The notes beneath the pieces are model-generated. The model was not told where the DNA came from. It searched no databases and saw nothing but the letters and a program-made list of their open reading frames with translations. DNA of 63,368 bases from Bacteroidales bacterium (GTDB lineage Bacteria; Bacteroidota; Bacteroidia; Bacteroidales; F082): NCBI GenBank assembly GCA_030683155.1, contig JAUXMV010000111.1, positions 1 through 63,368 of the forward strand, given 5' to 3'. A program made the position numbers and the translations under genes. Below, piece by piece: positions 36,671-63,368 of this stretch. Position 1 is the stretch's first letter; each line of letters begins with the position of its first letter.

Positions 36671-36831
36671 TGAAAGCCTTTTAAACTTATTTAACATTTA
36701 GGTAATTTAGAAACTGTCTAAATAGTTAATATACTCATATACAATTTATAAGAGAAATTAAAGTGTTAATAATTCTTTAAAAAGGCCCTAAATTGCACTG
36801 AAAATATAGCAAAAATTGAAGGATTTTCAGA

Positions 36832-41088: not shown

Positions 41089-41124
41089 ATGCGTTGATTT
41101 TATCTTTTTTCGCCTTTGATCCTA

Positions 41125-42303: not shown

Positions 42304-42309
42304 GTTTTT

Positions 42310-44188: not shown

Positions 44189-44204
44189 TCTTCTTAGGTT
44201 TTAG

Positions 44205-47186
44205 TTATACGGTTTTGTTCTTTACTTTGGTTAAGTAGCCTACTGAAGGCAATACATGCAACTCTTCAAGCAAATGATAGTTGCGTTGATCGGCAAAGTA
44301 TTTTGATACCATACTTTCCTTATCGTTTAGATTTCCAAAAACTATCGCTTCAGCAGGACAAGCCTGAGCGCAGGCTGGAACTACTTCGCCATCACGCAAC
44401 ATGCGGTTTTCAGTTTTTGCTTTCAATTTCTTTTCCTGAATGCGCTGTACGCAGAAGGAACATTTTTCGATAACACCTTTGGCGCGCACAGTAACATCCG
44501 GATTGAGCACCATTCTTCTTAGATCGGTGGTCATTTCTGCAGGATCATAGCGATTTCCTTTCATCGTATCTGCACCTGTGTAATCAAAGAAGTTGAAGCG
44601 ACGCACTTTGTAAGGGCAGTTATTGTTGCAATAACGGGTGCCAATACATCTGTTGTATGCCATTTGATTTAATCCTTCGTTGCTGTGTGTTGTGGCTGCA
44701 ACCGGACAAACGTTTTCACAAGGTGCATTATCGCAGTGCTGACACATTACAGGCTGACGCAAAATTTCAGGATTGTCAGGGTCACCTTTATAATAGCGGT
44801 CGATTCTGATCCAATGCATTTCGCGTGCCATTATAACCTGTTCCTTTCCAACGACCGGAACATTGTTTTCTGCTGAACACGCCACAACACAAGCATTGCA
44901 GCCCGTACAAGCATTCAGATCAATAGCCATTCCCCAATGCAAACCGTCAAATTCTGCTTTTGGGTACATCGACTTCAAATGTTCTTTTATTTCAAGCCTT
45001 ACTTCATTGCCCGATTGCGGATTTTCAAGATAGGCCTCCAGCGTGGTTTCTCTTATAATAGCCCTCCCTTCCATGGAATGATGAGACTGAGTGATTGCGA
45101 TAGGATGCTTTCCACCAGTAGTGGAAATATTCACATCACTTAACCAGTATTTTTTATTTTCGGCATCTTTTCCAATTAAACCAAAAAGGTTCTGACCAAC
45201 ACCATTTGCCGGAACGCCAGCCTTTTCACGACCATATCCCAAAGCAACTGCTATAGTTTTATATTCCTGACCTGGTTGGATCAGCACTGGCAATGCAGGA
45301 GATCCATTTACAGATATCAATTCCTCATTTTTCAGATTTAATTCAATTGCCAGGCGGGGTGAAATAGCAACATAATTGCCCCAACATGCTTTGGATACCG
45401 GATCCGGCAACTCCTGCAGCCAGGGATTGTTGGCATGTTTACCGCTTCCAACACTGACATTGGTGTATAAAACCAAATCTGTTGAATCTTCTGAGGATTC
45501 TACTTTTATGCTGTTTAAAGCAGCAAAGGCATTATCCCCATTGAAGCTGTTTATTCCACTTTCTTTTTCACCTGTCTCAAAAACTCCATCGTGTACTTTT
45601 TTATTCCAAAAGTCGGTGAAAGATATTTCAGCGGTTGCTTTGGTAAACATTTTTTGTTCCCAGACACCGGCCATATAGGTTCTGAAGTCAGCACTGTTTC
45701 CTGACCAACGGAGCAAACTTTCCTGAGCAGCGCGGGTTTTAAAGATAGGGCGGATGGCAGGTTGGGCCAGTGAATAGTAGCCTGTCATTGGTTCGAAGTC
45801 GTTCCAGGCTTCCAGATAATGATGGTCGGGACAGATAAACTTAACATGATAGGAGGTTTCATCATCCAAAACCGGCATTGCGACACTTAAACCAACTTTT
45901 TTAAGTCCTTCTATGAATTTTTCTCTTTCAGGATAATCATAAGCCGGATTAACATCAAAAATGATAATGCCATCCACTTTACCATCATTCATTTCCTGAA
46001 CCAAGGCGTCCATTCTGGCATCATCTGCTTGTCTGATTTTTGTGTGAACATCGGTCAGGATGGTAGTTCCATAACTTTCCAGAAGATGGTTTACAGCATT
46101 CACAAGCATTTGCTCCTCTGCATCGTTGCTTCCACTGACAACCAATGATTTTCCTTTGCATTGCATTAATTCATCCGCAAGTTTTTCAACTTCCACAGGT
46201 GAAGCTGGCAGGAAGGCGGCGTCCATTCCCATTTTTCCACGCAATACATTGAGTAGATTTGCCACAACAAGTTTTTGCTGCGACGGCTTTAGCTGCACCC
46301 TGTGATCTGCGTTACTTCCGGTAAGGGACATGGCACCTTCAAAATGAATATGCCTTGACATCCGCCCCTGTCCTGAGGTCAGTTTACGGTTTTTAATGTA
46401 TTGCTTTGTGTATTCCACAGGAGAAAGCCATGTGCCAAGAAAATCGGCATCAAAGCTAACAATCATTTCAGCTTTCTCGAAACGATAGGAAGGAATGAAA
46501 GCCTTGCCATAAGTTTTTTCATTGGCTTTGAGCATGCCTGATGCTGAAAGAACATCGTATTGAATATGCTCTGTTCCGGGATATGCCGCTACAAACTCAT
46601 CAATCGCAGCTTTTGTGGAAGGACTGATAACGGTAGGGCTTAAAAGAACAACTTTACCTTGTTTGACTTTAATGGAATTCAGTTGGCTGATAATTTTTTC
46701 ATCGGCCTGCTCCCAGGTTGTTTCCTGACCATCAAAAACAGGAAATTTGTGTCTTTCATTGTCATAAAGACTTAAAACTGAAGCCTGAGCACGTGCATTG
46801 GTTCCACCTTTAGTGATTGAAGACAAGGTATTTCCCTCAATTTTGATTGGGCGGCCATCACGAACTTTTACCAGAACGCTGCCATAGTCGATGCCATCAA
46901 AAAAACTTGAGGCATAATAGTTTGCTTTGCCCGGGATAATGCCCTCAGGCTGAATGAGGAAAGGAATGGCTTTGCGTACAGGCTGTTCACAGCTTGTGGC
47001 TATAGCGGCCGAAGCAATTGTAAAACCAAAGGCTTTCAAAAAGTCACGGCGTGTGCCAGAAGTCATTTTCTTTACTTCCTGCTGCATTTCCAGAATAAAC
47101 TGCTTGTCGCCTGCAGGTTTTTCGGAGGTTTCCCTTGTAATATCGATGGAAAGCTCTTCCAAGCTTTTGAAGTACTTATTTTCCAT
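44205..47186 (-). CDS. actB: Alternative complex III iron-sulfur subunit ActB
   Basis: 993 residues. Twin-arginine signal TRRDFLKAFGFTIASAAIATSC (~49-71). The first ~700 residues are a molybdopterin-oxidoreductase-like domain without cofactor motifs. The last ~270 form a ferredoxin domain with CNACVVACSAENNVP, CQHCDNAPCENVCP, CNNNCPYKVRRFNFF and CSFCVQRIQ clusters. It relays electrons from the quinol site to ActA haems. Confidence 0.96.
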   Translation of the reverse strand: MENKYFKSLEELSIDITRETSEKPAGDKQFILEMQQEVKKMTSGTRRDFLKAFGFTIASAAIATSCEQPVRKAIPFLIQPEGIIPGKANYYASSFFDGIDYGSVLVKVRDGRPIKIEGNTLSSITKGGTNARAQASVLSLYDNERHKFPVFDGQETTWEQADEKIISQLNSIKVKQGKVVLLSPTVISPSTKAAIDEFVAAYPGTEHIQYDVLSASGMLKANEKTYGKAFIPSYRFEKAEMIVSFDADFLGTWLSPVEYTKQYIKNRKLTSGQGRMSRHIHFEGAMSLTGSNADHRVQLKPSQQKLVVANLLNVLRGKMGMDAAFLPASPVEVEKLADELMQCKGKSLVVSGSNDAEEQMLVNAVNHLLESYGTTILTDVHTKIRQADDARMDALVQEMNDGKVDGIIIFDVNPAYDYPEREKFIEGLKKVGLSVAMPVLDDETSYHVKFICPDHHYLEAWNDFEPMTGYYSLAQPAIRPIFKTRAAQESLLRWSGNSADFRTYMAGVWEQKMFTKATAEISFTDFWNKKVHDGVFETGEKESGINSFNGDNAFAALNSIKVESSEDSTDLVLYTNVSVGSGKHANNPWLQELPDPVSKACWGNYVAISPRLAIELNLKNEELISVNGSPALPVLIQPGQEYKTIAVALGYGREKAGVPANGVGQNLFGLIGKDAENKKYWLSDVNISTTGGKHPIAITQSHHSMEGRAIIRETTLEAYLENPQSGNEVRLEIKEHLKSMYPKAEFDGLHWGMAIDLNACTGCNACVVACSAENNVPVVGKEQVIMAREMHWIRIDRYYKGDPDNPEILRQPVMCQHCDNAPCENVCPVAATTHSNEGLNQMAYNRCIGTRYCNNNCPYKVRRFNFFDYTGADTMKGNRYDPAEMTTDLRRMVLNPDVTVRAKGVIEKCSFCVQRIQEKKLKAKTENRMLRDGEVVPACAQACPAEAIVFGNLNDKESMVSKYFADQRNYHLLEELHVLPSVGYLTKVKNKTV

Positions 47187-47211
47187 TAGGAATATTTTCT
47201 TTTGGATGATT

Positions 47212-48423
47212 TTAATAATGACATTTCATACAATCGCCGCCGCCAACCATGTCGGCTGTTACCTTTTTGATCTGGCCGCTTTTGAATTGTTCATGCAATT
47301 TCTCGTATGTTTCGTAGAAACCGTTGTTAGCAAACTGCACTTCTGTTTTTCTGTGGCATTGTAAACACCAACCCATACTTAAATCGTTCACCTGCATTAC
47401 TTCGTGCATGGTTTCAACCTGTCCATGGCATTCAGCACAATCGAGTTTGCCGGAGTTTACGTGTTGTGAATGGTTAAAATACACATGGTCAGGCAGGTTA
47501 TGAATTCTGACCCATTGAACAGGTTCACCCGATTCCCATGCTTTTTGAATTTTTGCAATCTCTACTGTTCCGGTAATTTTTCCTTCTTTTACCTGATGGT
47601 GACAGTTCATACAAACATTTACGGAAGGAATACCGGCACTTTTGCTGTAGTCTGCTGCTGTATGGCAATATTTACAATCAATTTCGTTTTGTGCTGCGTG
47701 CACTTTATGCGAAAACCAGATGGGCTGATCAGGCTGATAATATTGCTGACGACCAATAGCAGCAGCTTCTTTGTAGGCAATCTCAGCAATAACAACCACA
47801 CCTATTAATATAAGTGCGGTATGAACAAACTTTGCTTTGATAACTTTTGTGACAAGTAAGTCGAAGATTACGACAATCAGAATTATCAAAGTAATGATGA
47901 ATATTGTTCCTGTATTACGGTTTGCATCTCTTTCCAAATCCTGCAAACGCTGTAAACGTGCTTCCTGTTCTGCTTCAATCTGTGCAGCAAGTACCATTTT
48001 TGCAGCAAGTTCTTCATTTGAAGGTTCAGGTTTGGCAAATTCCGGGGCAACTTTCAATCCGTTTTTGATATAAGCTAAAATATCGATGATCTGCTCATCA
48101 GTAAGATTGTGCGGCGGCATGGGGATATTGTTGTATTCAGCATAGAGCGCAACAGCAATAGGATCGCCGGACTGAACCATCTCCTGTGAATTACGGATAA
48201 ACTTAATCAACCAATCCTGCTCGCGCCGCTCTGTTACGCCAGCAAGATTTGGCCCGATGAGCTTAGCACCTTCCAAATTGTGACAAGCCTTACACTGCTG
48301 ATAATTTGCCTCTGCCTCAGGCGTCTGCGCCAATGCAGCATTGAAAGAAGCTATAAACAACAACAATGTGCAAGCAAATGCAAATCGGCGAAGTATAGCT
48401 CTGGTAAATAAAGTTTGTTTCAT
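47212..48423 (-). CDS. actA: Alternative complex III multihaem cytochrome c subunit ActA
   Basis: 403 residues. Signal peptide (1-32). An extra N-terminal monohaem domain (C-K-A-C-H, ~43-125, distal Met in IPMPPHN); a membrane helix (~175-195; IFIITLIILIVVIFDLL); then the classic pentahaem part (CKYCH, CMNCH, CAECH, CLQCH, CMKCH). That is six CxxCH motifs in total against five in the textbook ActA. It is the first act gene, with a candidate promoter at 48512-48519. Confidence 0.95.
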   Translation of the reverse strand: MKQTLFTRAILRRFAFACTLLLFIASFNAALAQTPEAEANYQQCKACHNLEGAKLIGPNLAGVTERREQDWLIKFIRNSQEMVQSGDPIAVALYAEYNNIPMPPHNLTDEQIIDILAYIKNGLKVAPEFAKPEPSNEELAAKMVLAAQIEAEQEARLQRLQDLERDANRNTGTIFIITLIILIVVIFDLLVTKVIKAKFVHTALILIGVVVIAEIAYKEAAAIGRQQYYQPDQPIWFSHKVHAAQNEIDCKYCHTAADYSKSAGIPSVNVCMNCHHQVKEGKITGTVEIAKIQKAWESGEPVQWVRIHNLPDHVYFNHSQHVNSGKLDCAECHGQVETMHEVMQVNDLSMGWCLQCHRKTEVQFANNGFYETYEKLHEQFKSGQIKKVTADMVGGGDCMKCHY

Positions 48424-50242: not shown

Positions 50243-51091
50243 TCAGATTATGTCATTTTTTTTGAAATACCTGTTTCCGGCCAATCCGAAAAGTGAACCC
50301 AAAACGATTGGATAAGCAATTGCAAAAAAGATGAAAAGTTCTCTTTTTACGGAATCAAGTATATAATAGGATGCGGCGCCCATGACAGTAAGTTCAGGAT
50401 CGAAAAGTACCAGCACTGCTGTTCTGAAAACCTGTAAAGGGTTCAACATTCCAAAACCAATTACCATTCCGGCATCGAGTCTTAGTTTTAGCATGAGCCC
50501 CATAAGAATAAGGTCAAGAAAGGCAACCAAAACCAGCCAGATAATAAAAGCTGTGCTTATGGCAAGGTCCTGAGAGTGTGCCACAACGGAGATAAACATA
50601 CTTATGCCTAAAAAGCAAAATATCATCGAAGCCAGCAAGGCACTGTACAGAAAAAAAAGATTCCATGGCACATCAAGGTCAGTGAATGAACCATAAATTG
50701 CTGCGCCTAAAAGAGCAATAAAAACCGGTATATAGGTTATTAAAAATTTTGCGGTAAACTTTCCCCAAAAATAACCTGTAAAGGAAATCGGCAATGATAG
50801 CATGAACTCCATTACGTTCGATTCGCGGTCTCCAACAATCGATCTGACGGTTGTTATTAAAACATAAATAGGTAAAATAACCATGCTGACCTGCATAAAG
50901 GTTACCATTAGTCTGCTAAGGCCAACAAATCCAATTATTTGAGATTCCGTGATGCCTGTAGAAAACATTATTGCCACAAAACCTCCAAAAAGTATGCTGT
51001 AAGTCCAAAACCATTTTGATCGCAGATTTTGTCTTATATCTGCATTCATTATTTGAAACAGACTTGATTCAGTAAATTTATTTAATCCCAT
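50243..51091 (-). CDS. nosY: NosY, ABC permease of the nos maturation system
   Basis: 282 residues, six membrane segments, ABC-2 family. Landmarks: SKWFWTYSILFGG, RSIVGDRESNVMEFMLSLPISFTGYFWGKF and the LILMGLMLKLRLD-AGMVIGFGMLNPLQVFR region. NosY works with NosF and NosD in copper/sulfur delivery to the CuZ site. It is upstream of the pentapeptide gene, 4 bases away. Confidence 0.92.
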   Translation of the reverse strand: MGLNKFTESSLFQIMNADIRQNLRSKWFWTYSILFGGFVAIMFSTGITESQIIGFVGLSRLMVTFMQVSMVILPIYVLITTVRSIVGDRESNVMEFMLSLPISFTGYFWGKFTAKFLITYIPVFIALLGAAIYGSFTDLDVPWNLFFLYSALLASMIFCFLGISMFISVVAHSQDLAISTAFIIWLVLVAFLDLILMGLMLKLRLDAGMVIGFGMLNPLQVFRTAVLVLFDPELTVMGAASYYILDSVKRELFIFFAIAYPIVLGSLFGLAGNRYFKKNDII

Positions 51092-51140: not shown

Positions 51141-51626
51141 TTAATGATGTAACATTTTCTTGTTTTTCAGAAATTCCTCCCTCATTGTGACTCCTTCCTT
51201 AATTCTTTTCACTGTAGTCGGGTAATCGAAAGCCGTATCAACTTTTTGTTTAACAGCAGAATAGCCATATCCCATTGGGGTTTGTTTACCATAAGTGTAC
51301 CAGGCCTCCTCAACTTTTAGCCACTCCCCTGTTTCACTGTCTGCAATGTATGAAACAGCGGTTTCACCACCAAACCTCTCCCAATCGGGCGATTCCATAA
51401 AAAAAATAAGACATCCTAGATCATCAAACCAAACGATGTCGCCACGCGTGTTGATGGATTGAGCAGAATATTTGGGGTCGGCTAGTCCCATCAGGCAAAG
51501 CACGCAGATATCACGATCGAAATGTATTTCACGCGGGCTCTGATCTACGTTTCGCTTGCAGGCATTGGATGCCAACAAAAGAATTACTGCGATAAGTACA
51601 GGGATTATAATTTTAAGTATTTTCAT
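51141..51626 (-). CDS. nosL: NosL, copper chaperone lipoprotein
   Basis: 161 residues. Lipobox ASNAC (Cys23). The copper-binding motif is C41-V-L-C44-L-M46, a variant of the usual CxxCGM with Leu in place of Gly. DPKYSAQ and the TPMGYGYSAV segment are typical of NosL. It delivers Cu(I) to apo-NosZ, in cooperation with NosD. Confidence 0.92.
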   Translation of the reverse strand: MKILKIIIPVLIAVILLLASNACKRNVDQSPREIHFDRDICVLCLMGLADPKYSAQSINTRGDIVWFDDLGCLIFFMESPDWERFGGETAVSYIADSETGEWLKVEEAWYTYGKQTPMGYGYSAVKQKVDTAFDYPTTVKRIKEGVTMREEFLKNKKMLHH

Positions 51627-51653: not shown

Positions 51654-52316
51654 TTAATTCAAATTTTTATCTAAAACAACAACACCAAGATCCATCTCAA
51701 TCACACGGTTTACAATTCCGGCGATTTCATCCATCCTGTGACTACTGAGAATCATCAGTGTTTTTGGAGCAAAATCTTTTAAATGATCAAAAAGAATTTT
51801 TCTTGCCTGAGGATCGAGATTAGCAGAAGGTTCGTCGAGTAACAAAATTCGTGGTTTACGACCAAGCGCAAAACTAATCAGCAGTTTTTGCTTCATCCCT
51901 CCGGAAAGCTTAAAAAACGGCTTACTGAAATTATCCTCCACGGACAATCCCATTTCGTGACTTAAACGAATGAAAGTGTTCGCGTCAGTTCCCGTCAGTT
52001 TCTCAAAAAAATAAATGAGTTCACGAACAGTCAGTTTCAATGGAGGTGGCATTTGTGGAACAAATCCAATATGCTGAAGGATGTTTTTTCGATCAATGCG
52101 GGGATTCATGTTCAATATTTCCATCTTGCCTTCAAAATTATACTGACCCAACATGCACCTGATAAGCGTCGTTTTACCCGCACCGTTCTGACCAATTAAT
52201 GCGATCCTGTCGTTTTCATTGAAAGTAAGATTGAGGTTTTTAATGACCTCCTGCTTCTTAAAACTTTTTGAAAGACCTTCTATCTGAATAATATTTATTT
52301 TTTCTTTTTGAATCAT
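51654..52316 (-). CDS. nosF: NosF, ABC ATP-binding protein
   Basis: 220 residues from ATG 52316; an in-frame start at 52349 would overlap nosH and adds a non-conserved stretch. Walker A GQNGAGKTTL, signature KLSGGMKQKLL, Walker B ILLLDEPSANLDP, H-loop SSHRMDE. It powers NosDFY. Between nosH and nosL. Confidence 0.94.
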   Translation of the reverse strand: MIQKEKINIIQIEGLSKSFKKQEVIKNLNLTFNENDRIALIGQNGAGKTTLIRCMLGQYNFEGKMEILNMNPRIDRKNILQHIGFVPQMPPPLKLTVRELIYFFEKLTGTDANTFIRLSHEMGLSVEDNFSKPFFKLSGGMKQKLLISFALGRKPRILLLDEPSANLDPQARKILFDHLKDFAPKTLMILSSHRMDEIAGIVNRVIEMDLGVVVLDKNLN

Positions 52317-52329
52317 TTCTATTTGATTT

Positions 52330-53277
52330 TTAGGTAAGTGAAGAGGCACCTCTCACAGCATAAGTGAGTGCATTGCCAGGACAAACATCAACGCAAAGGC
52401 CGTAGCGTGTACAATCTGAACCAGCATAATGCACATTCTGTGTTGCTTTGCCACGTTGCACAAACCAAAGTTCATGTGGCACAAGGCAAACTTTTTGACA
52501 TTCGAGGCAATATCCACATTTATCAAGATCAAATTTTATTGACAAAGGTGAAAGTTTTCCAACGAAGCTATACGTTGTGCCAATAGGGCAAACATATCTG
52601 CACCAGAATCTTTTACTGACAAATACCTCAAAAAGAATGACGGCCAGTACCCAAAGCAAAAGAAGACTTGGACCATAAATCAATGATTTCGAAATAATTC
52701 CAACCATATTGAGGTTTTCGAAAACAAGGTTCTTAGTAAGCACAGCCAGTAAAATAAAGCCAACAAAAAAGATAAATCTTAAGGCGGTATTATAATGGTG
52801 CTCCTTGATCTTTTTCTTTTTAATCAGATAATTATGTAGTTTTTCGGCCCACTCAGCCAATATATGGTATGGACACATCCACGAACAGAAGCCTCTTCCA
52901 CCAAAAATGAACCAAAAGAGCAGAATTGTTATAAATCCAATCCAGAAGTTCATGGTCAGCATTGCAATATATCCTGTTGTAGAGGATATTGCAAGAAGCT
53001 GCAACGAGTTATAGGGATCCATCAAATAAAAACCTATCAGGCGAGAACCACTTAGTGAACCTTCTAAAACCGAAAGATCCAACACGAAAGATGCAACAAA
53101 AAGAAGGTTCATAAACAAAAGGACAGACCACCTGATGTTACGCCATTTATGGTTTTTCTTCCGAGCATCGCGCCATTCTTTGTATGAAAGTCCACTAAGA
53201 CTGTGCGGCATTTGATCGACACTTTTTGGCTTAAATGGAGTTTTATTTTTTCCGCTAATTAAATAATCTGAAATCAT
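52330..53277 (-). CDS. nosH: NosH, NapH-like quinol-dehydrogenase membrane subunit
   Basis: 315 residues. Four to five helices. Conserved cytosolic loops FCSWMCPYHILAEWAEKL and CRYVCPIGTTYSFVGKLSPL, then ferredoxin motifs CGYCLECQKVC and CTRYGLCVDVCP. With NosG it is proposed to move electrons from menaquinol to the periplasmic side in clade II nos systems such as Wolinella. It is 12 bases after nosG. Confidence 0.92.
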   Translation of the reverse strand: MISDYLISGKNKTPFKPKSVDQMPHSLSGLSYKEWRDARKKNHKWRNIRWSVLLFMNLLFVASFVLDLSVLEGSLSGSRLIGFYLMDPYNSLQLLAISSTTGYIAMLTMNFWIGFITILLFWFIFGGRGFCSWMCPYHILAEWAEKLHNYLIKKKKIKEHHYNTALRFIFFVGFILLAVLTKNLVFENLNMVGIISKSLIYGPSLLLLWVLAVILFEVFVSKRFWCRYVCPIGTTYSFVGKLSPLSIKFDLDKCGYCLECQKVCLVPHELWFVQRGKATQNVHYAGSDCTRYGLCVDVCPGNALTYAVRGASSLT

Positions 53278-53289
53278 ATAAGCTGAATT

Positions 53290-54105
53290 TTAATAAGGTT
53301 CGATAATGATACTTGGTTCTTTGGTTGGACAAACCATAACGCACACACCACAGCCCGTGCATCCATCAAGAACGCGGGGAATAAGCTTACGACCGCTTCG
53401 GCTTAAAGCCTGAATAATAGCTGTTTCGCCAATCGGGCATTCAGTAACGCAAAGATTGCAAGGATCACGGTCAAAAGTTTTTTCGTTTAACGGGGAAGCT
53501 GATGCATCTTCACTTTCAGGCGCACGATAGTTTCCTTTAAAATTCAATCCTCTTGAGATGCCGCTAAAACCTTTACCCCTGTGGGCCAAACAGGTATCAT
53601 GATCTACCTTTGCTTTTCCCATCCTTACAATGCTCTTCATTGCAACTTTTTGAACCTCAAATGGGTTCACTTGCTGCAAATCATTGCCTGCTTGAGTCGC
53701 AGCCAATTCTACTGCAAAAAGCCCTGCTTTTTTAAATGGCTCAAAGTTTAACACAGCTGTTGGGCAAGTTTCGACACACTGAAGCGCATCGCAGGAAAAA
53801 TCGCAGGCTTGCTCACGTGGATCTATGTAAGGTGTTCCGAAAGCAAGTCCTTCTCCCGCTTTTGCCAGTTTGATGGCTTGTACAGGACAAATCTGCACAC
53901 AAAGACCACATTTGATGCATCCATACATGAATTCATCTTCGTCAATTGCTCCCGGTGGACGCAAAAAATCGTGTCTTATTCTGCCTTCTGCTGTAAGGTG
54001 GTTCAGCCAGAAAGCACCTGTGCCAACTACAGCCAATGCACCGGCTGCTGTGAGACCGCTTTTAAAAAACTCCCGACGGCTGATTTCGGTTTGCTCTTTT
54101 TCCAT
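53290..54105 (-). CDS. nosG: NosG, NapG-like periplasmic ferredoxin
   Basis: 271 residues. Twin-arginine signal ISRREFFKSGLTAAGALAVV. Four 4Fe-4S motifs: CIKCGLCVQICP, CDFSCDALQCVETCP, CNLCVTECP, CTGCGVCVMVCP. Partner of NosH. A second, ACIII/cytochrome c route to NosZ is also possible in this organism. Confidence 0.92.
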   Translation of the reverse strand: MEKEQTEISRREFFKSGLTAAGALAVVGTGAFWLNHLTAEGRIRHDFLRPPGAIDEDEFMYGCIKCGLCVQICPVQAIKLAKAGEGLAFGTPYIDPREQACDFSCDALQCVETCPTAVLNFEPFKKAGLFAVELAATQAGNDLQQVNPFEVQKVAMKSIVRMGKAKVDHDTCLAHRGKGFSGISRGLNFKGNYRAPESEDASASPLNEKTFDRDPCNLCVTECPIGETAIIQALSRSGRKLIPRVLDGCTGCGVCVMVCPTKEPSIIIEPY

Positions 54106-54174: not shown

Positions 54175-56250
54175 TTAAAAAGCTACTTTCAGACCGAAGC
54201 TGAAGCTGCGTCCCGGTTCATAATAAAGACTTTCGGTATCCATTGCTTTGTATGCTCTGCTTAGATGTTCGACGTAGTTTTTATTCGCAAGGTTTTTAAC
54301 TGAAATATTCATTTCCAGCATTTTGAAAAGTTTGTAGGCTGCATAAAAATCAAATACAGCAAAGCCCGGTGTTGTTCCTTCGGCAAAACTTAACGAAACT
54401 CTGTCTTGTTTTCCAACCGCTCTCCCATTGAATCTTGCGGTTAGCTTCTCAGATTTCCACATGATGGATGAAACAAGCGTAACAGGCGTAATTTCAGCCA
54501 AAGGCTCATTCCAGCTTACATTTTGTCCATAGGTGAATGAAACTCCAAGATTATAAACTAAACCAGGTGTTATTGTATAGTCTATTCCTGTTTCAAAACC
54601 GGTTAAAAAAACCTTATCGATATTGGTGAATTTCTTTGTGAATTTTGGATTCATGCACGGCAGATACATTCTGGGAATAGTGGAATCCACTGATGCAGAA
54701 ATATAATCAGTGATGTAAGAATAAAAAACATCGGCAAAAACCAATAAATCCCCTACTCGTTTTTCAACTCTTAAGTCGGTTTGATAATTTACCTCAGATT
54801 TCAGATTAGGATTTCCAAGATATTCATAAGCATCCAGGCCAATACTTAAGTGATTGATAAATAACTCAGCCAATTCGGGAGCTCTACTCGCGCGGGCAGC
54901 AGCAAAATAAAAATTAAGGTTCTTGGGCAGATACCAGCTAAGTGAAGCAGTTGCCGAAATATCTATTCTGCTTTCTGGTGTTATATTATTATTGTAAACC
55001 TCATTGAAACTATTCTCAGGATCATTAATTGAATAGCTTATAAAATCTGATCTCACACCCAAGGTCCAAATCAGATTTTGAGTTATCTGATACTTATTTT
55101 CGAAGAACAGTCCCAAATCATTGTGTCTGGAATCCTGCCATGTTTTATCTACAAAGGCTTTTGGCGGATCGAAAATCTGTCCTGTACAGGTGCTTTTAAA
55201 AACCAGACGGTCACGATGTCCATCCTTACCAATATGTTTAAAGTCAACTCCGGCAAAAAGCATATTGGAAATACCGGCGCTTATTCCAAATTCTGTCCTG
55301 CCACCGAAAACAGTAGCATTCACAGGAGAAATGGCTTGAGAATCTTTATAGGCAGGCCTGTTTGTATTCGACATCAGATGATCCACATAACTGCCATACA
55401 GCTTCAACTTAAATGAACTGATGGTTGGTGTAAGCTGTAAAGCTGCATAGTCAAGGGAAAGAATACTGCTTTTATCCATATCTGCATCCATTGGCAGACC
55501 GGCATAAAGCACATCTTCAGCTTTGCTTTGGCGCCAGCTCAATTGCAGTCTTTGGTTTTCCTTTGGATTAAATCCAAACTTCAGTGCGTAGCCACTTCGG
55601 GTGAAAGATGATGCAATCTTCTGACCACTTCCACTTTTGTAATTGCCATAGTCTTTGTATCCGGCATTCAGAGAAAAATCAAATTTCCCTTTTACACCTT
55701 GAACAAAGAGATTGCTGAAAAAATTTCCTCCGTTTGACTGATAACCTGCATCAAAAGCTCCAATCACTGCTTTCTGCTCATTTCTGTCAGGTTTCCGATT
55801 TACTATATTGATGATACCACCAAAAGATTGTCCATAACGCACACTGTATGGTCCTTTGATAACTTCAATTTTCTCAATTTCTTCCATTGAAACTTGCGAA
55901 ATAGCAGGGTCCATTCTATTAGGACATGCGTTTGTGGTATGCACACCACCATCAATAAGTACATTCAACTGACTATATTTGAACCCTCTCAATACGGGTT
56001 CCATACCATAATTACCTCGTTTTTCTACACCAAATCCAACCTGATTCAGGAACATAGCACCACCATCATGATGGTTTTCCATATTAATTATATTCCCCGA
56101 TATATTTGATTTTGTGATGTTTCCAAAAGCTTTTCCCTTCACCAGAATTTCTTCGAGTTGAAGAGTATCAGGCTCTGATGCCACTAAAGTCATTGTTGCA
56201 AAAAGTGCCGCAATGATAATAATGATTGCTATAATTGTTTTTAATTCCAT
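54175..56250 (-). CDS. TonB-dependent copper receptor, OprC/NosA-like
   Basis: 691 residues from ATG 56250 (MELKTIIAII...signal to ~25); an earlier in-frame ATG at 56391 gives an implausible leader. Plug domain (~45-155) with LNVLIDGGVHTTNACPNRMDP and IEVIKGPYSVRYGQSFGGIINIVNRKP; then a 22-strand barrel ending SFGLKVAF. C109-x3-M113 in the plug and H291-L-M293 in the barrel match the CxxxM-HxM copper site of OprC, including the spacing of about 180 residues. It would import copper for NosZ. It is flanked by nosD/130-residue gene and nosG. Confidence 0.9.
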   Translation of the reverse strand: MELKTIIAIIIIIAALFATMTLVASEPDTLQLEEILVKGKAFGNITKSNISGNIINMENHHDGGAMFLNQVGFGVEKRGNYGMEPVLRGFKYSQLNVLIDGGVHTTNACPNRMDPAISQVSMEEIEKIEVIKGPYSVRYGQSFGGIINIVNRKPDRNEQKAVIGAFDAGYQSNGGNFFSNLFVQGVKGKFDFSLNAGYKDYGNYKSGSGQKIASSFTRSGYALKFGFNPKENQRLQLSWRQSKAEDVLYAGLPMDADMDKSSILSLDYAALQLTPTISSFKLKLYGSYVDHLMSNTNRPAYKDSQAISPVNATVFGGRTEFGISAGISNMLFAGVDFKHIGKDGHRDRLVFKSTCTGQIFDPPKAFVDKTWQDSRHNDLGLFFENKYQITQNLIWTLGVRSDFISYSINDPENSFNEVYNNNITPESRIDISATASLSWYLPKNLNFYFAAARASRAPELAELFINHLSIGLDAYEYLGNPNLKSEVNYQTDLRVEKRVGDLLVFADVFYSYITDYISASVDSTIPRMYLPCMNPKFTKKFTNIDKVFLTGFETGIDYTITPGLVYNLGVSFTYGQNVSWNEPLAEITPVTLVSSIMWKSEKLTARFNGRAVGKQDRVSLSFAEGTTPGFAVFDFYAAYKLFKMLEMNISVKNLANKNYVEHLSRAYKAMDTESLYYEPGRSFSFGLKVAF

Positions 56251-56417
56251 CTTTATGTATTTGTTATGTTTAATATAAACTTTCATTTTGTCTGAATTAG
56301 CTAAAATACTTTCAGGGTTACTCATTTTAAGCCGATGCAAGCAGTAATCTTGTATTTGCCTGACTTTCCTGATAAAATAATGCACATTCAATTGTTCTAA
56401 AAAACTATAAATGAAGC

Positions 56418-56812: not shown

Positions 56813-58120
56813 TTAAAATACTGTTGATCTGTTTTTGTTTTTTTCTTTCCAGATGTACATAGGTTTATTGTCGCGCAGCACAAATTTTGGTTGTGAGAAA
56901 GGCGCAAGCCTTTCAAGAAAATCAAGTGCAAGCAGCAAAGGAGAACCATAGAAAAACTTTACATCGCGGTCGAACGACCACAAATGCTCCACGTAAGCAT
57001 AAAGTGAATAAGGTGTGTCGCCGATATTATCGCCATCTTTGTCAAACCCTTGATAATCATCGAAATAGTTATTATCCCATTTATTCATGTTTGCTGTTTT
57101 ACCCTCAGCTTCGACCTGTACAAGATTGTTATGGAAGTAGTTGTTTTTAAACAAATTACCTTCCTGATTGGTATGAAATTTAATGCCGATACCGCAAAAC
57201 GCAATTTCGTTGTTGGCAATAGTATTTGTTTTTTCTGGCACAAAGGGCGAAACATCCACATGAATGCCTTCTGAAGAATAAATAAATCGATTGTTCAGTA
57301 TTTGGTTGGAGGATGTTTCTTTCATTCCGAGACACATTCCGCTGATGCCTGTTGAGCGCATGATCGTATTTCCCGTCATAACAGTCTGTTCAGAGTACAT
57401 CAGAAAAACGCCGACAGAATTTTCGTAAAATACATTGTCTTTTATGCGGTTGTTGTGTGCATACATAAAATGAATGCTGTAACGATTTCCAACACCTTTA
57501 TTGGCCTCGAAAGTGTTTTCTGAGGAGTACCAAACCACCATATCACGAACATTGTGCCAGTAGTTGCCCTTTATAAGATTGTTTTTTGAATACCATAACC
57601 GGATAGCATCTCCTTTAAGCGCCATTTGCCGCTTGCTAATAGAGCTTATCTCGCAATGCTGTATCAGGTTGTTGTCTGCCTGAAGAATATCAACACCAAA
57701 AAGACACTCAGCAATATGACAATTATCAACAAGATTAAAATTTCCGGTAAGTTTTACACCACTGTCAATTTTATCATGCGACCCCCCCGAATCGATGATT
57801 TTTAAATTCTTTAAAGATACATGGTCAGCGTTGACAAATAAAACGGAACCTTTTTCCAGTCCGGAGATAGTTACAAGACCTTTACCATCTAATGTGATAC
57901 CGTTGGTTGTAATTGTTGCCGGTCCAACATAAAAACCGGGCTCTAAAATGATTGTCTGACCAGGTCTGGCTTTATCAATAATTTCTTGCAGATTAATTTT
58001 ATTGGTACTATTATCAAAGCCTTGTACAGGAATTTTAAGGCCATAAATAATTTCTTCTGCCAAAAGGCTTTCACAAAAGAAAGCAAGAAAAAACAGTATG
58101 AGAATTTTTTTAATTTTCAT
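56813..58120 (-). CDS. nosD: NosD, periplasmic beta-helix maturation protein
   Basis: 435 residues. Signal peptide (1-21, ending SLLAEE). From ~50 to 360, right-handed beta-helix coils of the CASH/NosD type with many GNxxxxN turns (LVDNCHIAECLFG, NLIKGNYWHNVRDMVVWYSSEN, HNNRIKDNVFYENSVGVFLMYSEQT). The NosD-type end DNYFDDYQGFDKDGDNIGDTPY follows. It feeds copper/sulfur to NosZ together with NosFY and NosL. Confidence 0.95.
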   Translation of the reverse strand: MKIKKILILFFLAFFCESLLAEEIIYGLKIPVQGFDNSTNKINLQEIIDKARPGQTIILEPGFYVGPATITTNGITLDGKGLVTISGLEKGSVLFVNADHVSLKNLKIIDSGGSHDKIDSGVKLTGNFNLVDNCHIAECLFGVDILQADNNLIQHCEISSISKRQMALKGDAIRLWYSKNNLIKGNYWHNVRDMVVWYSSENTFEANKGVGNRYSIHFMYAHNNRIKDNVFYENSVGVFLMYSEQTVMTGNTIMRSTGISGMCLGMKETSSNQILNNRFIYSSEGIHVDVSPFVPEKTNTIANNEIAFCGIGIKFHTNQEGNLFKNNYFHNNLVQVEAEGKTANMNKWDNNYFDDYQGFDKDGDNIGDTPYSLYAYVEHLWSFDRDVKFFYGSPLLLALDFLERLAPFSQPKFVLRDNKPMYIWKEKNKNRSTVF

Positions 58121-58186: not shown

Positions 58187-58543
58187 TCAGCTTGTTTTTA
58201 AAGCTTTACGCTTCAAAAGCAAAGCAAACACAAAAGAAACAAACCCTCCCAACGCTATAAAAAAGCCATAATAGGGATAAGATTCGGTTGTAAACTGGGC
58301 TACTTTCCCTTCACCGAAAACAGTCGGCATAAAAGGTTTGATGCCGGCAAAAGCTCCACCACCATGCAAACCAAGATTGTGACCATACCAATAGAGATAA
58401 AAGATATAAACCAGCAAAAAATAAAATGGTACCAATGCCGGAATCCATGCAGCAAAAGCATACAAACGCTTTGTGGTGATCATAAAAAATATTCCGGCCA
58501 GAATAAAGATTATGAAAAAATAAGGCGAATTAACCATCAACAT
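58187..58543 (-). CDS. Nos-cluster membrane protein, 118 residues
   Basis: Three to four hydrophobic segments (PYFFIIFILAGIFFMI, FAAWIPALVPFYFLLVYIFYLYWYG, YYGFFIALGGFVSFVFALLL) with a Gly-rich loop LGLHGGGAFAGIKPFMPTVFG between them. No Cys. Conserved only by position as far as I can tell: two small membrane genes between the cytochrome c and nosD. It may fill the role of the unrelated or distant NosB-type proteins of other clade II clusters. Starts 3 bases after the 139-residue gene. Confidence 0.6.
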   Translation of the reverse strand: MLMVNSPYFFIIFILAGIFFMITTKRLYAFAAWIPALVPFYFLLVYIFYLYWYGHNLGLHGGGAFAGIKPFMPTVFGEGKVAQFTTESYPYYGFFIALGGFVSFVFALLLKRKALKTS

Positions 58544-58546
58544 ATT

Positions 58547-58966
58547 CTAATATATGAGTGGTTTTGGTGTAACATTAACCTTAATTTTTTCTCCGGTTGC
58601 ATAATCATATACGTCATGACCTTTATCATCTCTTTGGGTGTCGAATACATAAAAACTCGGATGTGTCATTCCTTTAGGATTATTTCTCCCCTGTACGATA
58701 GGATACATTCCGATATAGTGGTTTATTGCATTCATTTCCACCAGACAGTCGGCTCCCTCATTCGTTGCAAGCTCTTCGCGTTCCTTAACACCTTCGCAGC
58801 CATTGTAGACCCCGTCAAATTTGAAATTGATTCGAATTCCTTTCGGATACATAGCTTTGGGATATTGGATACTTTGAAGTGCTACACCCCATATTGGCAC
58901 AAAATAGGTAGCACCAATGAGAATAATTCCGATGAATGAAAAAATGAGATAAGATTTAGATTTCAT
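58547..58966 (-). CDS. Nos-cluster membrane-anchored protein, 139 residues
   Basis: One N-terminal helix (YLIFSFIGIILIGATYFVPIW) followed by a periplasmic domain with two Cys (VYNGCEGV...GADCLVEM), which may form a disulfide, and the motif INHYIGMYPI. The last third (THPSFYVFDTQRDDKGHDVYDY) is soluble. Proteins with an N-H-Y-I-G-M motif occur in other clade II nos clusters to my recollection, but no function is established. Confidence 0.6.
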   Translation of the reverse strand: MKSKSYLIFSFIGIILIGATYFVPIWGVALQSIQYPKAMYPKGIRINFKFDGVYNGCEGVKEREELATNEGADCLVEMNAINHYIGMYPIVQGRNNPKGMTHPSFYVFDTQRDDKGHDVYDYATGEKIKVNVTPKPLIY

Positions 58967-58992: not shown

Positions 58993-59358
58993 TTACTTTG
59001 AAGCCGTCACACCGGCCTCACCCATCATAAAACTGATGGCATCATACATATCCTGTTCTGAGCAATCCAGGCAAGTACCTTTTTCGGGCATTACACCAAA
59101 TTTTCCAGTGTAGCCCTTAATAGAATGTTCAAGCAGCACAGTCATTCCCTTGGCTGCAATTTCTTCCCATCTTGGTTTGTCTTCAAGGGCTGCAGCTCCG
59201 GCCACACCTTTCCAGTGGCATGCGATACAAGCTTTGTTATAAATGACTTTGCCATTTTCAAGGTTTGCCACCATTTCCCCGGAGCCACTGCTTCCGCAAC
59301 TGCTAATAATGAGCGAAACAAAAGCGCTTACCAAAGTGATTTTAAGTATAGTTTTCAT
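58993..59358 (-). CDS. Small cytochrome c lipoprotein of the nos cluster (NosC-like)
   Basis: 121 residues. Lipobox IISSC (Cys21). Haem c site C44-I-A-C47-H48 and axial Met90 in FGVMPEKG. Cys96 and Cys99 (GTCLDCS) likely form the disulfide seen in cytochrome c5-type proteins. It probably carries electrons to the NosZ-like proteins just upstream, like NosC1/C2 of Wolinella. Confidence 0.88.
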   Translation of the reverse strand: MKTILKITLVSAFVSLIISSCGSSGSGEMVANLENGKVIYNKACIACHWKGVAGAAALEDKPRWEEIAAKGMTVLLEHSIKGYTGKFGVMPEKGTCLDCSEQDMYDAISFMMGEAGVTASK

Positions 59359-59465: not shown

Positions 59466-61847
59466 TTATTGCTGACTCATGTATTGTGCTGTCTTCAGCT
59501 TCATGTATGTGATGATTTTATTTACATCTTTTTCCGAAACATTTTGATTTGGCATTGCAAGTTTATACCGCTGACGCATGCTTTCTATATCTGGTTCACT
59601 CATGTGTTTCTGTGGATTCATAATCCATGATTTTAACCATTCATCATTACGCCGTTTATCAACCATTAAAAGGTCAGGGCCATTAAAGTCTTCACCAAAT
59701 CTGTGGCACGCATTACATCCATAGTTCATAAATTCCATCTCGCCATCAAGCAAACCTTTCATCTCCATTGTTGAAGGCTGGAATGCCTGCATTTGCATGT
59801 CTGCCTGAACACGTTTTGAGTAAGCAAGTAAGGTTTCATTATTGGCAGCTTCATCATACTTAACAGTCAAATAACCCTGCAAAGCAGAACCTTCAGGACT
59901 GTGATAATTATCAAGAAGCAGAGGATACATACCTGCTTTTTCAGCTTTAAAGGCCAGTGTTGCCGTTTCACCTGGACGCCAGCGATACATCTGATCGTAG
60001 GACACAACTTCGTAAACATAATGGTCGAGGTTGGTTTGTCCATGATTTGTTACATGAATTTCAACATCCTGTCCCTGTTTAACGGCAATATTTCCGGGTG
60101 TCAGCACACCATTGTTTATTGTGGCATAAACATGAACTTTGTTGCCTTTCACTTCATTTCGTTCAGTACCCAATGCTGTGAAATAAGGAGATTTTTCCAT
60201 GGTATAAATATTCATGCCCACAGGATAGGTTTCTTCAGATTTGAAATAATCATGACGAATCAACGCAGTATAGTGAGGTTCCCCCATTGGAAGAGGCATA
60301 TCATAAATTATTTGCATTTTACCTCCTTCAATATCGATCAGCTGATGGTTTTGCGGATGCAAAGGGCCAACAGGATTAAAACGGTCGATAGAAAGCTTAT
60401 TCAATGAAATAAGGTACTTTCCATGTGGGTTCACAACATCGCCGTGAGCAGAAACAAGGTGTCCAACGTTATAATGGGATGAAACATAATCGAGAACTTT
60501 GAGGTTAATATAATCCCATTTAGTTATACGTGAATCAACATAAATAGAAGTATAGACTACTCCAGGTTCTTTGTCGTATTGATTGTGCAATGGACCCAGA
60601 CCTACTTCAACACTACCGTGCAAGGCAGTTTCAAGTGCGATTACAGGAATACCAAATTCATCTGTGCCTTCATAATTCTTTTCATTGATGGCTTTCATGA
60701 TCTTATCGAAAGAGTAAACCCATGCATGAGAATCAAGTTTACCGGCAACGATGATATATTTACCATCTGGGCTAACATCCACACCGTGAGGTGATTTTGG
60801 TTCAGGAATAAGGAAAAGGATATTATTTTCAACAGCTGCATCAATGGAAATTACTTTATGTCCGTTGACGATCATATACTTTCCTTCATTAATCATCTGC
60901 TCAGCCTTTTTCCAGTTTACAATGTGCAGGTAATCCACGTCGCGTGAGGAGCAACCAGCTTCAAACGGAGGCCGACCACTTTCAATTCCTCCAAAATACA
61001 TTTCTGTACAGAATGAGTTTGTGAACGACCAACCATCACTTACCAGCTTACCCATATCGGAAAGGTCTTGGGTGTAAGGAGGAAATTCTACAGTAAATGA
61101 ATTCTTTTCATCTACCCTGCCAATTTCATCATTAAATTTCCAATAGGTTATTCCACCTCTCCAATATTTTTTGAAGTTATTTTCTGTAAGTGGGTAGTAT
61201 TTTCTATCGAGAGGAGCCGGATATTGGGCTGCTTCGACAAAATATTCTGAATTGGGTGTAAAGAAACATCCACCGTGATTACTTCTGAAAATAGGGTTGT
61301 TTACAATTTGCTTCAATTCCCAGTCTTTCAGCGAAACGATGAACACTCTTGGATTGGCTTTGTCGTTCACAACAGCCCATTTACCATTATAGTCACCATT
61401 GGTTTCGGAGAAACCAGGGTGGTGTGTATCTGCCCATTCAATCTTCTGCCCATCAATAAAACCAGTTTTGAGCATTTCGAGCGACTCCTTACTGAAACCG
61501 AAACCATTCACAGGCTGTTTGGTGGAAGTTGGAACATATTTCAGCATGCGCATTGAGGGCACTGAATACATAATCATGTTTCCAGCCTGACCACCTGAGT
61601 TGAGCGCTATATACTCGTCCATTAAGTTATCCGGTGTAAAAGTTTTTGCTGCTGCGAGAACATCGTCGGCATTCAGGCCACGGCGTTTTACGACGTCACC
61701 AAAGGATTCCTCTCCGTAGGGTGCGCCAAGTTTTCCTCCCTCGGAGGATTTATCCTTCTTACCACAACTTCCGACTAAGATCATAAGCATCAAAGTGATT
61801 GTGCTTAAAAAAAGGACGGATATTATATTTTTATTTATCTTTTTCAT
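59466..61847 (-). CDS. nosZ: NosZ-like protein with CuZ site, no CuA site, and a C-terminal haem c domain
   Basis: 793 residues from ATG 61847 (MKKINKNIISV), lipobox LVGSC (Cys28), so Sec-exported and lipid-anchored. Seven-bladed propeller with all seven CuZ histidines: H142 and H143 (DTHHPGFSET), H191 (SNHGG), H354 (SPHGVDVSPDGKY), H421 (GLGPLH), H463 (NVGHL), H525 (GEPHY). A cupredoxin domain follows (~585-665) but its CuA loop reads PLLLDNYHSPEGSALQG, without the two Cys, His and Met. A monohaem domain ends the protein (C711-N-A-C714-H715, Met765 in AMPNQ). Known haem-fused cNosZ of Wolinella keeps CuA; this does not. It is 34 bases downstream of the CuA-bearing paralogue and is followed by a hairpin. 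Confidence 0.88.
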   Translation of the reverse strand: MKKINKNIISVLFLSTITLMLMILVGSCGKKDKSSEGGKLGAPYGEESFGDVVKRRGLNADDVLAAAKTFTPDNLMDEYIALNSGGQAGNMIMYSVPSMRMLKYVPTSTKQPVNGFGFSKESLEMLKTGFIDGQKIEWADTHHPGFSETNGDYNGKWAVVNDKANPRVFIVSLKDWELKQIVNNPIFRSNHGGCFFTPNSEYFVEAAQYPAPLDRKYYPLTENNFKKYWRGGITYWKFNDEIGRVDEKNSFTVEFPPYTQDLSDMGKLVSDGWSFTNSFCTEMYFGGIESGRPPFEAGCSSRDVDYLHIVNWKKAEQMINEGKYMIVNGHKVISIDAAVENNILFLIPEPKSPHGVDVSPDGKYIIVAGKLDSHAWVYSFDKIMKAINEKNYEGTDEFGIPVIALETALHGSVEVGLGPLHNQYDKEPGVVYTSIYVDSRITKWDYINLKVLDYVSSHYNVGHLVSAHGDVVNPHGKYLISLNKLSIDRFNPVGPLHPQNHQLIDIEGGKMQIIYDMPLPMGEPHYTALIRHDYFKSEETYPVGMNIYTMEKSPYFTALGTERNEVKGNKVHVYATINNGVLTPGNIAVKQGQDVEIHVTNHGQTNLDHYVYEVVSYDQMYRWRPGETATLAFKAEKAGMYPLLLDNYHSPEGSALQGYLTVKYDEAANNETLLAYSKRVQADMQMQAFQPSTMEMKGLLDGEMEFMNYGCNACHRFGEDFNGPDLLMVDKRRNDEWLKSWIMNPQKHMSEPDIESMRQRYKLAMPNQNVSEKDVNKIITYMKLKTAQYMSQQ

Positions 61848-61881
61848 GATGATATACTTCGTTGGTTTTACAATACTTTGA

Positions 61882-63228
61882 TTACATATTGATTTGTTCT
61901 GAGAGCAACTTTTTGGCACGTAAACCAACATCGGCTGTCTTCACCTGATACTGCCAGTATTGTTCAGCCCAAAGGAATGCATCCCTCCATTTACCTTCTG
62001 CAGCATAACGCTCATAGTTGGCTTTTGAGGTTTTTGCAAGTTCAAGCTGGTCGAATGCATCCACAACCAATGCCTCAACATAAGGATATTTTTGATAGTT
62101 ATTTTCTTTCAGATATACAACTACACTATTTATAACATCTTGTGTCTCATTGATAACCTTGATTTTGTCCTCATAATTCTTCTTATATCTGTCGAGATCT
62201 TCTTTTGTCAGCTGAACTTCAACCAAATCTTCTGCTCTTGGAACATAACCTTTAGGCCTCACAAGAAGTATTCCCTCCATTTCCAGATGAAGCGCGGAGC
62301 AAAACTCTGTGCAGTAATAAGGGAACACGCCCGAACGATTAGCAACAAAAGTAAGTGAAGCTGTTTTGCCAGGTTCAAAGCTACCATGAATTCCATATGT
62401 CGAAACTGTAAAACCATGGGTTTCATCTTCTGCCCGCTCAAGGTTTGTAAGATGGAATGTTACAACATCACCTTCTTCAACCTCAACGATTTCAGGTGTG
62501 ATATGAGAGCGGATCAAAGTGCCAAAGATATGCACGCGATTGCCCTGACGCTCTATCCTTTCTTGTCCGGCCACAGTCATAAACCTTGATATTTCTCCGG
62601 TTCTTGTATTTGTTCCGAGAGGATACCTGATAATAGGCTTAATGGTTGTGCGCAAAACACTTACTGAGCCATAGAGGTTTGCCTGCGGTATTGACATCGT
62701 ATAAATATCGCGCATCTTATCGGAGGAGATATCGATCAAATGCTGATAGCTTGGTCTTGTTGGACCAATATTGATCTGATTGTCATACAGCGCCTCTTTG
62801 TTTGTAACGGTAAGATAGTTGGAATGTGGCTCAGCGGAATTGCCTTGCGGAGTCATGAGATGGCCTGGTTTAAAACTAAGCTTAAGTTCATTTTCGATAT
62901 TTAATGTTTCATAGTTCCAACGAACAATCTTTTTGTCTTCAAAAACCGATGCATAAACAACATTGGTACGATAATCAAAAGCAATATCCATTACTTTTCT
63001 TCCAAGATCAATATTGCCATGTTTAACAGCATCAGGGTTTAAAACAGGGATTCCCAACACTTTTTCACTTTCGTATTTTTTACCATCCATTGCGTTTTTA
63101 ACTTTTGCAAAATCAAAAACATAGGCTTTGTCAGCGGCTGTGATGAAATATTTGCCAGTAGGATCAGTTTTAACGCTATTGGCAAATGTAGTCATTGGAA
63201 TAAGAGCGATTGCACCTGCATCAATAGC
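61882..63228 (-). pseudogene. NosZ paralogue with CuA site but without CuZ ligands, 5' end cut by an insertion sequence
   Basis: An open frame of about 448 codons remains up to the IS boundary; the ATG at 63195 is only the first one left. Visible parts: C-terminal half of the propeller, then a cupredoxin domain with a full CuA set (numbered from that ATG): H260 (DETHGF), C295, C299, H303 and M306 (YYCTEFCSALHLEM). Then a ~110-residue helical extension. CuZ positions are replaced: SPHGV by TFANSV, GPLH by RKVMD, EPH by QANLYG; only one (H112, KPGHL) remains. The frame has no other damage, so the insertion is recent, or the 5' half is still expressed elsewhere. Confidence 0.82.
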
Positions 63229-63368
63229 GGCTAAATCTTATTTTGATGTGCTAGGCATAGAATTGACTAAGTCTAAAGAAGAAGAAATCCTTATCTCTGT
63301 TTCCATTATTTGAAGATATTAGTTTCTGTATTTTACTATTAACTGCTTCGGCAATAGCATTTGTTTCA
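63229..63368 (-). mobile_element. End of an ISL3-like insertion sequence (partial)
   Basis: NosZ homology stops at 63228. From 63229 a terminus of the form GGCTAAATC...GATGTGC (23 bases) resembles, to my memory, ISL3-family ends in Bacteroidota. The transposase stop lies 24 bases inside it. The other end and the target duplication lie outside the window. The exact boundary could shift by a few bases. Confidence 0.65.
63251..63367 (-). CDS. Transposase C-terminus, ISL3-like (partial)
   Basis: 38 codons up to the TAG at 63253-63251, open to the window edge. The sequence ETNAIAEAVNSKIQKLISS then NRDKDFFFFRLSQFY matches the end of DDE transposases of the ISL3 type; the Glu in NAIAEA would be the last of the catalytic triad. 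Most of the gene is outside the window. Confidence 0.7.
   Translation of the reverse strand, partial: ETNAIAEAVNSKIQKLISSNNGNRDKDFFFFRLSQFYA

Follow-up and report, generated by a model that had tools for sequence, protein, structure and literature searches.

Nitrous oxide (N2O) reductases, or NosZ, rely on two copper centres, CuA and CuZ, which lie about 10 Å apart in the known enzyme. According to one description, no enzyme other than NosZ is known to reduce N2O to N2 (PMC13122619). In solved structures, two NosZ chains pair head to tail as a homodimer, an active site being made up of CuA from one protomer and CuZ from its partner, and N2O has been seen bound between the two centres (PMC11573801). 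The stretch of DNA analysed here, hereafter the window (63,368 nucleotides; contig JAUXMV010000111.1 of the Bacteroidales assembly GCA_030683155.1), encodes two NosZ-like genes in the same orientation on its minus strand, between positions 59466 and 63228. In the order of transcription, these are gene 1, a CuA-only NosZ paralogue, and, downstream of it, gene 2, a CuZ-only NosZ paralogue that also carries a haem c. Complementary ligands, adjacency, co-occurrence, a mirrored constraint on the two domains and a common branch of origin can be read directly from the sequences. Reciprocal ligand loss, reciprocal domain conservation, selection on the dead halves and a common origin support the idea, already put forward in the initial annotation of this DNA, of a heterodimer with one CuA-CuZ pair and a haem c. 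The two genes probably encode two unlike subunits of one obligate heterodimeric N2O reductase (estimated probability about 0.76).

Several described systems are close to this pair. Clade I and clade II NosZ carry both CuA and CuZ (PMC8301774), whereas the pair has these centres on different chains. Clade I NosZ, which depend on twin-arginine translocation (TAT), as in Pseudomonas stutzeri, share the fold and the ligand positions of the pair, and the proposed heterodimer takes their head-to-tail dimer as its template; they differ in being homodimers with both centres in each chain and are about 26% identical to gene 2. Clade II NosZ (TIGR04246), known from Bacteroidota and Thermomicrobium roseum, resemble the pair in their two-domain fold and nos accessory genes and, judged by inspection, may also share a Sec-type signal with it, and both genes of the pair branch beside the T. 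roseum NosZ. Some clade II NosZ end in a cytochrome c domain (PMC8301774). NosZ of the Wolinella succinogenes type have, like gene 2, a haem c domain at the C-terminus, and a route linking this domain to CuA has been proposed for them (PMC8301774); this type unites both copper centres and haem c within a single chain, whereas gene 2 has haem c and CuZ and is devoid of CuA ligands. The lactonase-type L-NosZ of clade III (NF052460), a recently reported group (PMC13122619), is weakly related to the pair, whose genes, compared by profile score alone, reach 66.7 and 116.6 bits, far under the cut-off of 700. A wastewater survey lists 15 metagenome-assembled genomes (MAGs) with two clade II nosZ, none of them within 45 genes of each other, so that no tandem pair is reported there (PMC11409646). 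No account of such a pair was found in full-text literature searches, the coverage of which leaves out preprints and most subscription journals.

Gene 2 encodes 793 amino acids from the ATG at position 61847, the start that we consider most plausible, to its end at 59466. It combines a full match to the clade II profile TIGR04246 (686.8 bits, cut-off 625; some of its relatives fall just under this cut-off, with 618-624 bits) with a cupredoxin domain, a C-terminal cytochrome c domain holding a single CNACH haem c motif, and a lipoprotein-like signal, which is lipobox-like by inspection and whose Cys28 is invariant in 50 of 50 aligned sequences. Gene 1 is represented in the window by its 3' part, which holds C-terminal propeller blades, a CuA cupredoxin with the motif CTEFCSALHLEM and a helical C-terminal extension of about 120 residues. 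Indeed, the window is the whole of a contig (C68) and gene 1 runs off its end; the 5' part lies on another contig of the same genome, C10 (locus L008, 142-1064, minus strand). The fragment in the window scores 276.8 bits over profile positions 277-578 of TIGR04246, below the cut-off, and its relatives reach at most 479 bits. In relatives, the intact gene 1 encodes about 750 amino acids, made up of NosZ and the helical extension. By inspection, gene 1 has a hydrophobic N-terminal start ending near AQQ. The extension is conserved (residues 627-749 in gene 1 of locus L038), and comparison with PDB sequences and Pfam gave no useful match for it. Gene 1, ending at 61882, is separated from gene 2 by 34 bases, in agreement with the initial annotation, which had placed two adjacent same-strand NosZ-like genes at these coordinates. 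It had also held that these are not halves of one gene, and this stands: two halves of one split NosZ were rejected, since in many relatives of either gene the full copy extends over the whole NosZ profile (positions 1-578) or nearly so.

When one genome per species was scanned, 369 stretches were found to encode a relative of the gene 1 fragment, and the 80 best of them were examined. The ligands were compared in an alignment of 71 gene 1 copies (>700 amino acids, of 80), 69 gene 2 copies (of 79) and six single-gene NosZ, using the P. stutzeri ligand numbering for the CuZ and CuA positions; its His numbers agree with P. stutzeri mutant entries and with the 1qni alignment. The CuZ ligands His129, His130, His178, His326, His382, His433 and His494 are present in 68, 68, 68, 69, 69, 69 and 69 of the 69 gene 2 copies, respectively, versus 0, 0, 1, 3, 0, 10 and 0 of the 71 gene 1 copies. 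All seven occur together in 68/69 gene 2 copies, the remaining copy having a gap or X at three of them; no CuZ histidine is left in 57 of the gene 1 copies, one in 14, and more than one in none. The CuA ligands show the reverse pattern. His583, Cys618, Cys622, His626 and Met629 are all present in 71/71 gene 1 copies, in which the CuA motif CTEFCSALHLEM is moreover identical throughout the wider set (80/80), and none of the five (two Cys, two His, Met) is found in the 69 gene 2 copies, a count made on full copies, short fragments being unable to show the motif. A Lys and a Glu are said to stabilise the CuZ site (PMC8301774); at the positions mapped onto the present alignment, both are kept in 69/69 gene 2 copies, and gene 1 has the Lys in 71/71 and Asn in place of the Glu in 71/71. 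All 42 single-gene NosZ that were fetched have both the CuA motif and an EPH motif.

In the window itself, gene 2 has the seven CuZ histidines and neither CuA cysteine. Gene 1, when both parts are considered, has lost five of the seven CuZ histidines and has His at positions 129 and 433, which exceeds every relative. The initial annotation had described one gene as CuZ-only with a haem c and the other as CuA-only; the ligand counts uphold this description, apart from these two histidines retained by the window's gene 1. The first three CuZ positions, on which its CuZ-less call also bore, lie outside the window, and the part on C10 lacks two of these three ligands. A gene 1 that is CuZ-less merely through truncation was thus rejected, both on this ground and since the 71 full relatives hold at most one of the seven.

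The two domains are constrained in opposite ways in the two genes. Mean pairwise identity in the propeller and the cupredoxin is 0.641 and 0.919 for gene 1 (n = 71), 0.765 and 0.667 for gene 2 (n = 70, including that of the window), and 0.735 and 0.766 for single-gene NosZ of the phylum (n = 36). Compared pair by pair, the cupredoxin is more conserved than the propeller in 100% of cases for gene 1, 5% for gene 2 and 72% for single-gene NosZ; the conserved halves are the cupredoxin of gene 1 and the propeller of gene 2, unlike in single-gene NosZ. Median ratios of nonsynonymous to synonymous substitution rates (dN/dS), calculated on 68-71 closer locus pairs, are 0.077 (propeller) and 0.020 (cupredoxin) for gene 1, and 0.064 and 0.087 for gene 2; these values are rough, with dS near 1 and locus pairs that share loci. 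The dead halves, namely the propeller of gene 1 and the cupredoxin of gene 2, are still under purifying selection, which would fit a scaffold role.

The initial annotation had suggested a gene-neighbourhood search and had regarded independent occurrence of the two types, or the constant presence of a normal full NosZ next to an unexpressed pair, as evidence against the heterodimer. In this search, gene 2 lies directly downstream of gene 1, on the same strand, in 79 of the 80 loci, the sole exception being L048, where the contig ends right after gene 1. With a pattern that recurs in 79/80 related loci, chance neighbours were rejected. The gap between the two genes has a median of 30 bases (range -20 to 100; 72 loci with a guessable start). 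Distances within gene 1 and within gene 2 correlate strongly (r 0.89 over 61 loci; highest value in 999 permutations, 0.09), as they should if the two genes are inherited together. All 80 loci are from MAGs or from an uncultured bacterium by record title, mainly Bacteroidales, Flavobacteriales/Flavobacteriaceae, Saprospiraceae, Chlorobiota and Melioribacteraceae; single records are titled Cloacimonetes and Sulfuricurvum, the latter a 3.6 kb contig that is perhaps misbinned.

Independent occurrence was not seen at the level of genomes either. Among 100 genomes, comprising 99 relatives and the genome of the window, 19 encode gene 1; a gene 2-type match accompanies it in every one of these, on the same contig in 16; six others have one ordinary NosZ (CuA motif in 6/6), and none has both the pair and an ordinary NosZ. 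Within 60 genomes of the window's family, the pair is present in 19, a single ordinary NosZ in five, and both in none. Fifty of the 80 loci fall in 49 genomes, all of which hold both types (by score and length). An ordinary clade II NosZ (>900 bits) stands beside the pair in four of the 49 (G503, G509, G520 and G521), and none was found in the other 45, clade I and clade III NosZ not having been searched for; a normal clade II NosZ is therefore far from always present. In an even sample of 394 Bacteroidota genomes, 127 pass the TIGR04246 cut-off, 126 of them with at least 806 bits, that is, of the single-gene type; this assignment was made by score, with the CuA motif verified in 30 fetched sequences. 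The window's own genome is the only one with a visible pair, which is thus uncommon among the well-completed genomes of this sample. Two MAGs each hold two pairs (G510, loci L065 and L076; G515, loci L073 and L074). Separately, an ordinary-type NosZ in two overlapping frames (457 and 268 amino acids; G464:C144:4139-5957) may be a frameshift or another split NosZ.

Regarding the origin of the pair, FastTree phylogenies were built with 42 single-gene NosZ references from full, propeller and cupredoxin columns separately. Each of the two genes forms a monophyletic group and the two groups are sisters, with a support of 1.0 on the full and on the propeller columns. An IQ-TREE analysis of 35 sequences under a simple model groups gene 1, gene 2 and T. 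roseum at 99.7/100. According to these placements, both genes derive from one T. roseum-like branch. Long branches may have had an influence, and tandem duplication followed by complementary loss would be the simplest, though not a certain, origin.

The following scheme could account for these features. A clade II-like ordinary NosZ gene would have been duplicated in tandem, and the copies would have lost complementary metal centres: gene 1 would have kept the CuA cupredoxin with a dead propeller, and gene 2 the CuZ propeller with a dead cupredoxin, together with a haem c and a probable lipid anchor. In a head-to-tail dimer, CuA would adjoin CuZ only in the gene 1-gene 2 combination, so that each heterodimer would have one composite active site instead of the two of a homodimer. 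As we infer the electron route, electrons would enter at the haem c of gene 2, at the adjacent cytochrome c, or at both, then pass from CuA of gene 1 to CuZ of gene 2, where N2O would be reduced. The physical heterodimer, its expression and its activity are likewise predicted from the genes.

A haem c motif is present in 69/69 full gene 2 copies (one in 56, two in 13) and in 0/71 gene 1 copies. A gene for a small cytochrome c follows directly after gene 2 in 30 of 48 one-haem loci versus 0 of 12 two-haem loci (nine further loci end too early; Fisher p 0.0001, not corrected for relatedness). The extra domain of the two-haem gene 2 is homologous to this small cytochrome (47% over 117 residues in L061), a fusion which ties the cytochrome to the enzyme. 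Structure models were built from alignments of 54 and 50 sequences, gene 1 being modelled from L038. The gene 2 model (predicted local distance difference test, pLDDT, 79; predicted template modelling score, pTM, 0.71) superposes on solved NosZ with a TM score of about 0.84, at about 4 Å; the gene 1 model (pLDDT 78, pTM 0.65) matches NosZ in each of the two domains. The stretch of residues 89-118 in gene 1 of L038 is well conserved, yet has very low confidence in the monomer model, and may, as a hint only, be a partner contact.

The restriction of haem c to gene 2, and the NosZ fold retained in its model, would also suit a homodimeric N2O reductase made of gene 2 alone, with haem c replacing CuA as the direct donor of electrons to CuZ, and gene 1 acting as a separate periplasmic CuA electron shuttle or a copper-assembly partner. 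This arrangement is unlikely. Indeed, purifying selection maintains a dead propeller in gene 1 (median dN/dS 0.077), for which a free CuA shuttle would have no use, no other domain of the pair is as conserved as the cupredoxin of gene 1 (0.92), and such a homodimer would set a cupredoxin without CuA over CuZ, where CuA normally helps to form the N2O site (PMC11573801).

The proposed heterodimer has several points against it as well. In a head-to-tail arrangement, the haem domain of gene 2 comes after that gene's own dead cupredoxin, which would face the dead propeller of gene 1, and the path from haem to CuA is not obvious; either the linker reaches over, or the other cytochrome docks at gene 1. 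The cytochrome is not universal, 18 of the 48 one-haem loci having neither a separate cytochrome nor a second haem. The gene 1 monomer superposes poorly overall (TM score to the target about 0.62, root-mean-square deviation about 9 Å), which leaves its domain arrangement unsettled. The cupredoxin tree groups T. roseum with gene 1 (joint node support 0.435), and gene 1 plus gene 2 without Thermomicrobium is only moderately supported (SH-aLRT 55.7, UFBoot 86). Finally, the genomes with the pair are MAGs of unstated completeness, in which a missing ordinary NosZ could be missing data.

The genes surrounding the pair are listed in the table below.

Features of the nos region of the window, from the interrupted end of gene 1 through the downstream genes
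Feature	Position	Strand	Basis
Insertion sequence end interrupting gene 1	63229..63368	-	Terminal inverted repeat GGCTAAATCTTATTTTGATGTGC and C-terminal end of transposase frame
Gene 1, 3' part: CuA-type NosZ paralogue without CuZ	61882..63228	-	TIGR04246, motifs
Gene 2: CuZ-type NosZ paralogue without CuA ligands	59466..61847	-	TIGR04246, motifs, alignment
Small monohaem cytochrome c	58993..59358	-	Homologous domain fused to the gene 2 C-terminus in two-haem relatives
NosB-like membrane protein	58187..58966	-	Comparison with relatives, which have one frame of roughly 245-300 codons
NosD	56813..58120	-	TIGR04247, 370.8 bits (cut-off 300)
TonB-dependent receptor	54175..56391	-	Nearest copper-receptor model, 235.6 bits, below cut-off (472)
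NapG-like ferredoxin	53290..54105	-	Profile score below cut-off
NapH-like ferredoxin	52330..53277	-	TIGR02163, above cut-off
NosF-like ABC ATPase	51654..52349	-	ABC_tran; Nos name from position
NosL-like lipoprotein (weak)	51141..51626	-	PF05573, 17.8 bits (cut-off 24)
NosY-like ABC permease	50243..51091	-	ABC2_membrane_2; Nos name from position

Genes for nos maturation are thus present in the cluster, NosD and the NapH-like protein scoring above their cut-offs and being accompanied by an ABC ATPase, a permease and a weak NosL-like match; the NosB-like gene is so named mainly from its position. The TonB-dependent receptor encoded inside the cluster could perhaps serve copper supply. Downstream of the cluster, a multihaem cytochrome, a Mo-like/FeS protein, an NrfD-like protein and a cytochrome c are encoded at 40525-48423, a gene set which we take to resemble alternative complex III; several relatives, among them L054, L057, L086 and L116, have homologues of it immediately upstream of gene 1. 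A respiratory island at 31866-39222, near the nos cluster, comprises a CcoNO fusion of a cbb3-type oxidase (34274-36421), CcoG and a heavy-metal P-type ATPase.

A different possibility is that the NosZ fold serves here as the basis of a sensor, or of a CuZ enzyme whose substrate is not N2O. Its distance from solved NosZ (about 26% identity) and the provenance of all 80 loci from uncultured organisms leave some room for such a role, which is nevertheless very improbable given the retention of the seven CuZ histidines (68/69) and of the Lys/Glu pair (69/69), the nos maturation genes sharing the cluster, and the fact that the pair is the only clade II-type NosZ found in 45/49 genomes.

In the window's own genome, the system appears to be damaged. 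The interruption of gene 1 escaped the initial annotation; positions 63229-63368 belong to one end of an insertion sequence and not to gene 1. At the window's end, the transposase frame (63251-63367) matches PF01610 (DDE_Tnp_ISL3) with 17.3 bits (cut-off 23) over model positions 209-239 of 240. The start of C10 (L008, 1-141) carries the inverted partner repeat and, by eye, the apparent start of the transposase frame. The eight bases flanking the two repeats agree at 7/8 positions (ACTATTGA and GCTATTGA), which is nearly a target duplication. The genes that precede gene 1 on C10 encode an AraC-type regulator, a TPM-domain protein and HtpG/Hsp90; homologues are present upstream of gene 1 in eight, six and two of the 80 loci, respectively, not every locus reaching that far, and the loci with the TPM protein or the regulator are mostly those of the nearest relatives. 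On the basis of the repeats at both ends, the flanking bases and these recurring upstream genes, the parts on C68 and C10 very probably belong to one gene 1. No second gene 1 copy was found in this genome, which is 98.6% complete. The NosB-like gene, which is one frame in relatives, has an in-frame stop at 58547-58549, a second sign of decay of the nos locus in this genome; gene 2 is intact. With an insertion sequence inside gene 1 and this stop in the NosB-like gene, the copy in the window's genome is probably inactive. That both genes are degenerating, functionless duplicates or an assembly artefact draws on these two lesions and may hold for this one genome; for the family it is contradicted by the order and ligands conserved across 79/80 loci and by low dN/dS in all domains, and can practically be dismissed.

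The pair is fairly likely, taking both statements jointly, to be a further architectural type of NosZ, that is, a subfunctionalised tandem duplicate that combines a single composite CuA-CuZ site with a covalent haem input, and to be the only clade II-type N2O reductase, as the same obligate heterodimer, in many uncultured Bacteroidota and relatives. If the heterodimer is real, each copper centre and each interface could be studied in isolation, the passage of electrons from CuA to CuZ could be followed at a single site, and comparison with the ordinary enzyme would show whether its two sites act cooperatively; the pair would moreover illustrate cleanly how complementary loss after duplication can give rise to an obligate heteromer. 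Surveys of nosZ based on hidden Markov models (HMMs) or primers may count the pair as one gene or as two, and either gene judged alone would be mislabelled as defective, in an enzyme whose substrate, N2O, is a greenhouse gas that it destroys.

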